The notes beneath the pieces are model-generated. The model did no database searches. It saw nothing but the letters and a program-made list of their open reading frames with translations, and had not been told where the DNA came from. Both the position numbers and the translations under genes were made by a program. A stretch of 64,000 bases of DNA. Source: Halosimplex salinum (GTDB lineage: Archaea > Halobacteriota > Halobacteria > Halobacteriales > Haloarculaceae). The stretch spans positions 372,001 through 436,000 of the forward strand of contig NZ_QWGG01000001.1 in NCBI RefSeq assembly GCF_003730195.1, in the 5' to 3' direction. Shown here piece after piece: positions 26,043 to 32,185 of the stretch. Every line of letters starts with the position of its first letter. Within the stretch, counting starts at the first letter, position 1.

Positions 26043-27185
26043 ATGGATATTGCTGATATAGCCACCAGCGAGTATGTCGCTGTCGACGTCGACGAACGCC
26101 TGGGGAAAGTGCGGTCGCTGTTCGAACGCGAGAACCCCAAGGGTCTGATCGTCACCGACGACGACGAGTACGCTGGGATCATTACGCAGAAACAGCTGGT
26201 GCAGTCTCACATCGAAGACAACACGAAGGCGAGCGCGATGATGCAGTCGGCCCCGAAAGTCGAGCGCACGGCGGACGTGCGCAAGGTCGCCCGCGTCCTC
26301 GTCGAAGGCGGAACCAAGGTCGCCCCCGTCTTCGAAGCCGACCGCCTCTGGGGGATCGTCACCGAGGACGCGATCCTCGAAGCGGTCCTCGAGAACCTCG
26401 ACGCGCTCACGGTCCGGGACATCTACACCGACAACGTGGTCACGGTCACCGAGGAGTCGAACGTCGGGCAGGCGATCAACCTGCTCCGCGAACACGGCAT
26501 CTCCAGGCTCCCCGTCCTCGACGAGGACGGGCGGCTCTCGGGGATGGTGACCCGTCACGACATCGTCGACATCGTCGTCCGCGACATGGACAAGGCCACC
26601 CGCGGCGAGCGGGCCGGCGACATCGAGCGCGTGCTCGACTTGCCCGTCTACGACGAGATGAACAGTCCCGTCGCGACGACGACGCTCGACGAGTCCGTAC
26701 GCGACGCCGTCCAGCGGATGCTCGAACACGACTACGCCGGCCTCGTGGTCACCCCCGAGGGCGACGACAGCGTCGTCGAGGGCATCCTCACCAAGACGGA
26801 CGTGCTTCGCGCGCTGACGTTCACCGAGGAGGAGCACATGGACGTCCAGATAACCAACATCAAGCTCCTCGACACGATCAGCCGGGAGGACATCCGCCAG
26901 CGCATCGAGCGCGTCGCCGACAAGTACCAGGCGATGCAGGTCCAGCACTGTCACGTTCGCTTCCACGAACACAAGGAGAAACTCCGCGGCACGCCGCTGA
27001 TCCGCTGTCAGATCCGCCTGCGCACCAACAAGGGCCAGGCCGCCGGCTCCGGCGAGGGGTACGGCGCCGACTCCGCGTTCGGCGTCGCGCTCGACAAACT
27101 GGAACGGAACGTCCTCGAACTCAAAGACGTGCAGGCCGACGAGGAGTACCGCGGCCAGCTCCTCCGGAAACTCGGCGAACTGTAA
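26043..27185 (+). CDS. Four-CBS-domain protein fused to an HPF/RaiA-like ribosome hibernation domain
   Basis: 380 residues. Two Bateman pairs (four CBS domains, about residues 1-260) carry recurrent GLIVTDDDEYAGIIT, RLPVLDEDGRLSGMVT and LVVTPEGD-type strands that bind adenosine nucleotides in homologues. Residues about 290-375 match HPF: QVQHCHVRFHEHKEK, QIRLRTNKGQAAGSGEG and ALDKLERNVLELK. HPF binds the 30S subunit and stops translation. The fusion suggests that ribosome hibernation is gated by cellular AMP/ATP, which is inference. Confidence 0.8.
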   Translation: MDIADIATSEYVAVDVDERLGKVRSLFERENPKGLIVTDDDEYAGIITQKQLVQSHIEDNTKASAMMQSAPKVERTADVRKVARVLVEGGTKVAPVFEADRLWGIVTEDAILEAVLENLDALTVRDIYTDNVVTVTEESNVGQAINLLREHGISRLPVLDEDGRLSGMVTRHDIVDIVVRDMDKATRGERAGDIERVLDLPVYDEMNSPVATTTLDESVRDAVQRMLEHDYAGLVVTPEGDDSVVEGILTKTDVLRALTFTEEEHMDVQITNIKLLDTISREDIRQRIERVADKYQAMQVQHCHVRFHEHKEKLRGTPLIRCQIRLRTNKGQAAGSGEGYGADSAFGVALDKLERNVLELKDVQADEEYRGQLLRKLGEL

Positions 27186-27275
27186 GCCTCGCGACCACTG
27201 CGCCCCACCACGGCGCTTTCCGCTTCGCTCTCTCCCGACAGCGGCTCGCCCGGTGCGCTCGACCGACAGCCGGAC

Positions 27276-27425
27276 TTACTCCGAGTAGCCTTCCTGGAGG
27301 AAGGCGCCCTCGGTCTCGTACACGGAGACGAGTTCCTCGACGAGCTCGGCCAGCGACTCGTCGTCTTCGAGGTGTCGCTCCATGCGCTCGGCGAGGTCGT
27401 CGTCGATCTCGATAGTGGTCGTCAT
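27276..27425 (-). CDS. 49-residue antitoxin-like (ribbon-helix-helix type) protein
   Basis: Starts MTTTIEIDDDLAERMERHL and continues DDESLAELVEELVSVY. The short strand followed by two helices is the shape of RHH/CopG antitoxins and of small haloarchaeal relatives. No toxin gene is adjacent, so it may be a solitary DNA-binding or regulatory protein. The ATG is at 27425 and the stop TAA at 27276. Confidence 0.6.
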   Translation of the reverse strand: MTTTIEIDDDLAERMERHLEDDESLAELVEELVSVYETEGAFLQEGYSE

Positions 27426-27507
27426 GTGGGTGGGTACCATTGGACGGCGAGCCGGAAGAACCTGATGGGCGCAGCGGGACCACGCTTCGAGCGGTCGCGA
27501 CGGCGTC

Positions 27508-28358: not shown

Positions 28359-28397
28359 CCTCTTACTATATCCCGTTGTGACGAGAACTACTTAAAG
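28359..28397 (-). repeat. 39-bp promoter-like repeat, copy 1
   Basis: On the minus strand the unit starts CTTTAAGTAGTTCTCGTCAC and ends TATAGTAAGAGG-like (here ATAGTAAGAGG). This copy is nearest to rpoeps, 75 nt from its start codon. It differs from the consensus at one base in the GGGG block (GGGATATAG). Confidence 0.9.
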
Positions 28398-28485
28398 AGC
28401 GCCCCGGCCGACGTTGTGAGCGGCCACGGGACCCGACCGAGTCACGACGGACGCGTCGCTCGGAGTCGAACTACGCCGCAGAACT

Positions 28486-28524
28486 CCTCTTACTATACCC
28501 CGTTGTGACGAGAACTACTTAAAG
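28486..28524 (-). repeat. 39-bp promoter-like repeat, copy 2
   Basis: Matches the consensus throughout: minus strand CTTTAAGTAGTTCTCGTCAC followed by AACGGGGTATAGTAAGAGG. The left flank on the minus strand continues AGTTCTGCGGCGTAG. Confidence 0.9.
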
Positions 28525-28641
28525 GCCTGTCGCGAGCAAGCGCCCCCCAGTCGTCGGCCACCGTCGGGAGCCGGCCGGTCGTGTCTGTGGCCGCTACCCG
28601 AACCCAGCGGTCGCTGGTCAAAACGAGATCTCAGAAAACTC

Positions 28642-28680
28642 CTCTTACTATACCCCCTTGTGACGAGAACTACTTAAAGG
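28642..28680 (-). repeat. 39-bp promoter-like repeat, copy 3
   Basis: One change from consensus, in the GGGG block (AAGGGGGTATAG). The minus-strand flank continues AGTTTTCTGAGATCTCG. Confidence 0.9.
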
Positions 28681-28779
28681 AACGATGGCCTCAGTGGACC
28701 CATCCGCAATCGGCTATCGGCCGGCCGTCGAAGCGAACTGTGGCCGCGTCGCTGATCGATCGCGATGTCGCGAAGAACT

Positions 28780-28818
28780 CCTCTTACTATACCCCGTTGT
28801 GACGAGAACCACTTAAAG
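28780..28818 (-). repeat. 39-bp promoter-like repeat, copy 4
   Basis: One change from consensus, in the TATA-like block (CTTTAAGTGG). The minus-strand flank AGTTCTTCGCGACATCGCGA can form a short hairpin. Confidence 0.9.
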
Positions 28819-28911
28819 GAGCGAACGGCCCAGCGACTCAGTCGTCGATCGTTCGACCGTCGGTATAGGTGGGGTAGGCGTCGCTGACGAATCGTAGTAC
28901 GACGCAGAAAT

Positions 28912-28950
28912 CCTCTTACCATATGCCGTTGTGACGAGAACTACTTAAAG
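28912..28950 (-). repeat. 39-bp promoter-like repeat, copy 5
   Basis: The most distant copy from rpoeps. It differs from consensus in the GGCATATGGTAAGAGG part. The minus-strand flank ATTTCTGCGTCG...CGACGC can form a 6-bp hairpin. Confidence 0.9.
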
Positions 28951-28969
28951 GAACGAGCGGCCCGGACGG

Positions 28970-29310
28970 TCACCGGTCGGGATTCGTGACGTGATACAGT
29001 AGTTCGTACTCGCCCACGTCCTGCCCGTCTTCGAGCACTTCGCGCATGACCTCTTTGTGCTCCTCGTCGATGTCGTGGTCGGAGTCCTCGAACTGGTCCC
29101 AGACTCGCTCGATGTCCTCGGCTTCCATGTAGTACACCAGATGCGGGCCGTCGTCGGTGCGTTCGAGGAGCGCCGACTCTGTTTTCATCCCCTCGTCCCG
29201 GAGCGTCTCGACGACCTCGTCACTTCGGTCGCGGACTTCACCCATCCACTCTTTCAGCGGTCGACTTTGCCCTCTTCCACGCGCTGTTTGACCATCACGA
29301 CGTCGGTCAT
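28970..29310 (-). pseudogene. DUF6176 family gene interrupted by a one-base frameshift
   Basis: The intact-looking downstream frame (28970-29245, 91 residues, starting MGEVRDRSDEVVETLRDEGM) lacks the usual N-terminus. An upstream frame begins at ATG 29310, MTDVVMVKQRVEEGKVDR, and stops at 29254. Restoring one base near 29257 joins them through LKEWMGEV, giving about 113 residues with the expected DUF6176 pattern (KxRxxxGKxxRLxEW). A TATA-like AAACGATAAG (29338-29348) about 28-38 nt before 29310 supports that start. The site is not a classical slippery heptamer, so mutation or sequencing error is likelier than programmed frameshifting. Family function unknown. Confidence 0.75.
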
Positions 29311-29484
29311 TCTGTTCGAGCGATAGGTCCCTCGGTCGCTTATCGTTTGGGCGGCTGTGGAACGTAGTCTCTCACGTGGGTGCAGCCACAGGTGTCGATG
29401 CCTGTTCGATACGGATGCTCGTTGAGTAGTTGTTTCTATGTAGTGAGTCGTGAATAGAAGTCGAGTTGGAGTGACCGCAGTCGT

Positions 29485-29959: not shown

Positions 29960-32185
29960 CTACTGGAAGCCGATGCGGCCGCCGGAACGGCGCTGCTGGG
30001 CGTTCTGACTGCCGCTCTTGAACTCCTCTTCCATCTGCTCGTAGTAGTCGCGGATGTCGTCGGTGATGGTCGGGCGGACGTTGTCCATCGCCTGTCGGAA
30101 GTGACTCATCTCGACGACGTCGGCGTCTTCGTCCTCGCGGAGCGCCTCGATGGCGGCCTCGCGGCCGATCGATTCCAGGTCCGAGCCGACGAACCCGTCG
30201 GTGACCTCGGCGAGCTCTCGCAGGCTCACGTCGGGACCGAGCGGCTGGTCTTCCGTGTGGATGCGGAGGATCTGCTCGCGGCCCTCCGTGTCGGGCTCGC
30301 CGATCATGACGAGCCTGTCGAAGCGGCCCGAGCGGATGAGCGCCGGATCGATCATGTCGGGGCGGTTGGTCGCGCCGATGACCATCACGTCTTCCATGTC
30401 CTCCAGCCCGTCGAGTTCGGTGAGGAGCTGGTTGACGACGCGTTCGGAGACGTTACTGCCGACGTCGCCGCCGCGGCCGGGCGCCAGCGAGTCCAGTTCG
30501 TCGAAGAAGATCACCGTCGGGGCGACCTGCTTCGCCTTCCTGAACGTCTGGCGGATGGCCTTCTCGCTCTCCCCCACCCACTTCGAGAGGAGTTGCGGGC
30601 CGCGCACGCTGATGAAGTTGGCGTCGGTCTCGTTGGCGACGGCCTTGGCCATCAGCGTCTTCCCGGTGCCCGGTGGGCCGTAGAGGAGGACGCCGCTCGG
30701 CGGGTCGATACCCATCCGGCGGAACTTCTCGGGCTTGTTCAGCGGCCACTCGACGGACTCCTGGACCTTGCCCTTGGCCGACTCGAGGCCGCCCACGTCG
30801 TCCCACGACACCTTCGGCAACTCGACGAGCACCTCGCGCATGGCGCTGGGACTCACCTCGTTGAGGGCGCCGCGGAAGTCCTCGCGCTTGATGATCATCC
30901 GGTCGATGAGGCTCGGCGGGATGTCCTCCTCGTCGAGGTCGATCTCCGGGAGGTATCGGCGGAGCGCCTTCATCGCGGCCTCCTTCGTGAGGCTCTCGAT
31001 GTCGGCGCCGACGAAGCCGTGCGTCTCGTCGGCGAGCCGGCCGAGGGTCACGTCGTCCGAGAGCGGCATGCCGCGGGTGTGGATCTGGAGGATCTCCTCC
31101 CTGCCCACCTCGTCGGGGACGCCGATCTCGATCTCGCGGTCGAACCGGCCCGGCCGGCGGAGGGCTGGGTCGACGCTGTCGACGCGGTTGGTCGCGGCGA
31201 TGACGATGACCTGGCCCCGGGATTCGAGGCCGTCCATCATCGTGAGCAGCTGTGCGACGACGCGGCGCTCGACTTCGCCGGTCACGTCCTCGCGCTTCGG
31301 TGCGATGGAGTCCAGTTCGTCGATGAAGATGATCGAGGGCGCCTCCTCGCTGGCGTCCTCGAAGATCTCTCTGAGTTGCTGTTCGGACTCACCGTAGTAC
31401 TTCGAGATGATCTCCGGGCCGGCGATAGAGAAGAAACTGGCAGAGGTCTCGTTGGCGACCGCCTTCGCGAGCAGGGTCTTCCCCGTGCCGGGCGGGCCGT
31501 GGAGCAGGACCCCCTGTGGCGGCTCGATGCCGAGCTTCTTGAAGATCTGGGGGTGTTTCATCGGCAGTTCCACCATCTCGCGGACCCGCTGGATCTCGTT
31601 TTGCAGGCCGCCGATATCCTCGTAGGTGATGCCGCCGCCGGTCTTCTCGAAGCCGCTGATGGGCTCCTCGCGGAGTTCGACCTCGGTGTCCTCCGTGATG
31701 AGGCAGACGCCGTCGGGTTCCGTCTCGACGGCGATCAGCGGGATCGCCTGTCCGGGCGACCGCATGAACGGGTGGTTCGTCGAGGACATCACCGGGACGA
31801 TGTCGCGCTCGACGACCGGCCGTTTGAGGATCTGTCGTTTCACCATACCTGCGGCGTCGGAACCGAACTGGACGCTGGCCTCCTCGGGCGGCGCGAGGAC
31901 GAGCTTGTCCGCCTTCTCGGCCTCGGCCTTGCGGATCTCGACGCGCTCGCCGATGCCGACGTCGGCGTTCTGGCGCGTGAATCCGTCGATGCGGACCGTA
32001 TCCGTGTTCCAGTCCTGTCGGTCCGCTCGCCACACTTTCGCCGCGGTCACTTCGCTGCCTTCGATCTCGATGATGTCGCCGGGTGAAAGCTTGAGGTGTA
32101 GGAGCGTGTCGGGGTCCAGCCGGGCGATGCCGCGACCCGAGTCGTTCGGGTACGCTTTCGCCACTTCTAGTTGCACTTCGTTCAT
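29960..32185 (-). CDS. cdc48: Cdc48/VCP-type AAA+ ATPase
   Basis: 741 residues. A CDC48 N-terminal double-psi barrel (about 1-180, starting [20 protein letters not shown]) is followed by two AAA modules, each with Walker A GPPGTGKT and Walker B (IIFIDELDS in D1, VIFFDELDS in D2), plus sensor and arginine-finger segments [10 protein letters not shown] and [10 protein letters not shown]. In archaea it unfolds and extracts proteins for the proteasome and other partners. The tail ends [10 protein letters not shown]. The hairpin-rich element A lies directly downstream. A T-rich element near 32225-32237 may be its promoter. Confidence 0.95.

Follow-up and report, generated by a model that had tools for sequence, protein, structure and literature searches.

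A DUF6176 gene on the minus strand of the window (the whole stretch of 64,000 nucleotides analysed here) lacks one base at the junction of codons 18 and 19, and its reading frame runs into a premature stop there. We consider it likely that this is a recently broken, dispensable gene whose full protein has been lost. The lesion described before is thus true and was interpreted correctly, and it is ordinary: as in other haloarchaeal single-base-indel pseudogenes, one base is affected, the remainder is intact and the gene is a dispensable accessory one, with nothing distinctive here. By itself it is of minor weight, since it concerns an accessory gene whose decay has only begun. The case does show the dispensability and patchy occurrence of DUF6176 in haloarchaea, and it draws notice to the variable interval between a cdc48-family gene and an RNA polymerase subunit epsilon-type gene, where repeat copy number and gene content differ among eight Halosimplex-type genomes. 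The repeat array in this interval is a more interesting feature than the lesion.

The disrupted gene

The window is part of contig 11 in a draft assembly of 5.07 Mb and 28 contigs. The features of the locus are the following.

29960..32185, minus strand: cdc48-family AAA ATPase gene, upstream neighbour
about 29338..29350, minus strand: promoter-like stretch CCCAAACGATAAG of the DUF6176 gene, largely conserved in two relatives; putative promoter
29257..29310, minus strand: codons 1-18 of the DUF6176 gene (MTDVVMVKQRVEEGKVDR), predicted to form strand 1 and the beginning of helix 1
29256..29259, minus strand: one base fewer than in two congeners, between codons 18 and 19
29254..29256, minus strand: premature stop TGA, product of the shifted frame
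28970..29257, minus strand: continuation of DUF6176 in the next frame, with ATG 29245 as the start of an ORF of 91 residues
27508..28281, minus strand: RNA polymerase subunit epsilon-type gene, neighbour

The DUF6176 frame starts at ATG 29310-29308, runs for 18 codons and ends at TGA 29256-29254. In the adjacent frame the sequence goes on as LKEWMGEV... from 29257 up to a stop ending at 28970; the first ATG of this frame is at 29245. The preliminary description had the frame from 29310 broken at 29254 and the next frame carrying on DUF6176. Its coordinates are correct, and reading through raises the score against the Pfam family PF19673 (DUF6176) from 75.6 bits for the 91-residue ORF to 100.4 bits, both above the curated cut-off of 27 bits. 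By profile score the locus therefore belongs to the family. A full-length domain in one open frame is not found, positions 22-107 of 109 lying in one frame and the start in the other, and with the domain split in this way the window copy is a disrupted member. In a frame-tolerant profile alignment, joining the two frames gains 37.4 bits after a penalty of 10 bits. Upstream of the lesion, the N-terminal profile scores at best 48.5 bits within the 90 nt around the start. None of 2000 random stretches of the same length from the window reaches this value (mean 8.9, sd 1.8, highest 45.4), which shows that the match is not due to chance.

Comparison with close relatives, which the preliminary description had called for, was possible with two of the seven other genomes of the genus (G002 and G006). 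Both hold DUF6176 at the same position, between the cdc48-family gene and the epsilon-type gene, as a single unbroken frame of 113 codons, and thus provide the intact orthologue at the same locus by which a pseudogene is recognized. The coding part of the three-way DNA alignment is gapless but for one base missing from the window between codons 18 and 19, exactly where a deletion at about 29257 had been proposed. The same alignment places the CCCAAACGATAAG stretch, with some changes, 30-40 bases before the same ATG (29310) in both relatives. Going by this conservation, the stretch belongs to the upstream start, in agreement with the earlier assignment of a promoter-like element at 29338-29348.

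Distribution of DUF6176

The gene is present in 3/8 genomes of the genus, in 12/59 relatives and in 29/146 genomes drawn from the order. With such a patchy occurrence in both genus and order, DUF6176 is a dispensable accessory gene in haloarchaea. Intact members were found in the two congeners and in Haladaptatus species. A literature search found no paper mentioning DUF6176, and nothing on the cdc48/epsilon-gene locus, tandem promoters or the epsilon subunit in haloarchaea.

We also looked for relics of DUF6176 in the congeners that do not have the gene, and 14 of 15 comparisons stay within their shuffles. In the genome G004, the sequence directly preceding a repeat copy matches the 3' end of DUF6176 over a short length, scoring 30 against a highest value of 29 in 200 shuffles, and this is no more than suggestive of a relic. 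As a separate observation, in three genomes of the genus g39 (G054, G187, G249) a long ORF with an ABM domain is found no more than about 2 kb from DUF6176, a possible hint of a functional link between the two.

Some other DUF6176 loci look disrupted as well. Among 45 loci, three of them incomplete (L086, L104, L114), the frame-tolerant alignment makes four look disrupted, namely that of the window and the following three.

L101 (G187): frameshift, gain 14.0 bits
L095 (G181): internal TAG, gain 5.4 bits (weak)
L018 (G021): internal TAG, gain 2.4 bits (weak)

A lesion in G263 that was apparent by eye is unsupported in this alignment. A high decay rate of the family was considered and rejected, as two of the four apparently disrupted loci, the TAG cases, gain just 2.4 and 5.4 bits. 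As a yardstick, the ABM-family rows show no internal stop among the matches listed; no rate is claimed from this.

Age of the lesion

The proportions of nonsynonymous and synonymous differences (pN, pS) between the window and each of the two congeners were counted by the method of Nei and Gojobori. After the lesion, pN/pS is 0.124/0.460 against G002 and 0.091/0.395 against G006, corresponding to a dN/dS of about 0.17-0.19. Before the lesion, the two comparisons with relatives give 0.047/0.358 and 0.094/0.435. Among the lineage-specific codon changes, 8/14 are nonsynonymous in the window as compared to 13/34 in the two relatives together (Fisher p = 0.34). Taken together, the pN/pS pattern and these codon counts indicate that selection acted over most of the divergence.

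Relaxation on the window lineage is thus not significant, and besides the gap there is no further damage in the window copy. Both points count against an explanation by decay, and the codon counts against the two relatives give no significant sign of a long neutral decay. Since purifying selection is seen in the codons before and after the lesion alike, the lesion is either recent or an isolated error in the sequence. The preliminary description had offered these same two options on the ground that the rest is intact, and the selection now seen in that part bears it out.

Mutation or sequence error

It is important to consider whether the missing base is an error of sequencing or assembly, the gene being intact in the organism. 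The intact and selected remainder of the gene speaks for this, and so does the reliance on one draft assembly of 28 contigs. On the other hand, the run at the lesion site is two bases long, with no long homopolymer, and a two-base run is an atypical place for a homopolymer error. The local error rate can be judged from a scan for split frames among coding-like ORFs, in which 250 kb of this genome were compared with 280 kb of G006. A first pass flagged 3/54, 2/49, 2/54 and 2/55 comparisons; with a GC3 filter, 2/128 (G006 to own) and 1/122 (own to G006) remained. One of the two flags among the 128 is DUF6176 and the other is antisense to plus-strand ORFs, while the single flag among the 122 is conserved sequence preceding a solute-binding protein gene. 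A small flag at 27121-27483 was judged indirectly: it has no own-strand match better than the neighbouring genes, and it is gone under the GC3 filter.

General frame errors in the assembly were accordingly rejected, as the flags other than DUF6176 are frames antisense to, or before, real genes (partly judged by eye). In the 128 genes compared, which span about 250 kb, DUF6176 is the only frame break placed in a real gene; frame breaks are thus not a general trait of the assembly, and the local error rate is low. Together with the short run at the site, this leads us to favour a real mutation, and we infer that the base is absent in the living cell; an error is rather unlikely.

For a real mutation, the course of events would be the recent loss of one base of DUF6176, at codon 18/19, in a Halosimplex-type haloarchaeon. 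Translation from the native start would then end after 18 residues, and the full protein would not be made. As the gene is dispensable, the lesion may be read as the first step of its decay, with a remnant that would have no function.

Predicted fold and possible products

We now consider what the remnant could still provide, starting from the predicted fold. The model of the intact H. carlsbadense homologue has a mean pLDDT of 80.3 and a pTM of 0.70; the other four models reach 44.5-69.3. It contains strands at residues 3-11, 42-52, 55-64 and 101-109 and helices at 13-28, 30-39, 67-75 and 80-92. Structural comparison gives 9lmn_A as the best match (Z 10.3, rmsd 2.5 over 98 residues), followed by 1tuw (Z 8.5), 7byu_A (Z 8.4) and 1x8d_A (Z 8.3). 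DUF6176 is thus predicted to be of the dimeric alpha/beta-barrel type, a superfamily with a ferredoxin-like alpha+beta fold: many chains of this kind (ABM, LsrG, NIPSNAP, cyclase and rhamnose mutarotase types) align with residues 1-98 of the model, although the sequence identity is 4-22% and the Foldseek E-values are weak (best 0.042). A sequence profile search for solved structures gave no convincing relative.

The chain that would start at ATG 29245 is without strand 1 and half of helix 1, and its mean pLDDT is 53.6 compared to 80.3 for the intact homologue. Given the missing elements and the poor prediction, the 91-residue remnant is probably non-functional, and it probably fails to fold. 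The preliminary description had suggested that this ATG could still yield a 91-residue product. The ORF is indeed present, which makes such a product possible, whereas its folding appears unlikely from the model.

A partial function would require reinitiation at ATG 29245 after the TGA at 29254, giving the 91-residue protein and possibly also the 18-residue strand-1 peptide. The distance from TGA to ATG is just 8 nt, and the two ORFs together lack no more than four residues (LKEW). In a study on Haloferax volcanii (PMC10666635), distances of -8 to +10 nt are treated as predictive of coupling and gaps of 13/14 nt kept 40-60%. As coupling in that organism tolerates short gaps, reinitiation is conceivable. 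However, ATG 29245 is an ordinary internal Met common to several homologues and hence not a selected new start, and the product would be the truncated, poorly predicted chain discussed above. We therefore hold reinitiation with partial function to be improbable. That the lesion has created a new, translationally coupled pair, in which the 18-residue peptide and the 91-residue chain assemble into a working barrel, is very improbable. The full protein could also be restored by programmed frameshifting, and the change of frame required is indeed -1. Both congeners encode the protein in a single frame with no shift site, however, and inspection of the junction by eye shows no X XXY YYZ slippery heptamer, which makes this option hardly credible. 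The loss of the full protein from a recently broken gene thus stays our preferred reading.

The cdc48/epsilon-gene interval

Between DUF6176 and the epsilon-type gene, whose plasmid-borne relatives in other haloarchaea carry the annotation 'DNA-directed RNA polymerase subunit epsilon', lies the following feature.

28380..28960, minus strand: array of five promoter-like repeats (TTTAAGTNGTTCTCGTCACAA...TAGTAAGAGG)

The five tandem repeats are about 125-155 nt apart. The element TTTAAGTNNTTCTCGTCACAANGGNNTATAGTAAGAGG is found upstream of the epsilon-type gene in all eight genomes of the genus, in 1-5 copies each (5, 2, 4, 3, 5, 4, 3 and 1 for G000-G007, in this order), where a copy is a match with at most two mismatches to the first 21 positions of the element. 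In this genome it is confined to the array, apart from one three-mismatch match elsewhere. With its TATA-like box and conserved start region, the element appears to be a duplicated promoter. An rRNA promoter was considered as well and rejected, as neither 16S gene has a TTTAAGT/TTTAAAT-type element in the 1500 nt that precede it. An Rfam search of the window gave nothing.

The content of the interval varies. DUF6176 occupies it in three genomes, a CAAX-protease-like gene in G003 and unrelated ORFs in G001, G004 and G005, while G007 has nothing there. In G004 and G005 (loci L036 and L037) the ORF, unrelated to DUF6176, lies between two repeat copies, so that the copies bracket cargo. Other genera of the family have related elements as well, which in two loci of one genus stand before the epsilon-type gene. 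In the genus g4 of the same family (L046-L051), a variant, about TTTAAGTRCTTCTSGTCGCAATGGCTGATAGTGAGCC, is seen at several places near other genes, with three in tandem in L049.
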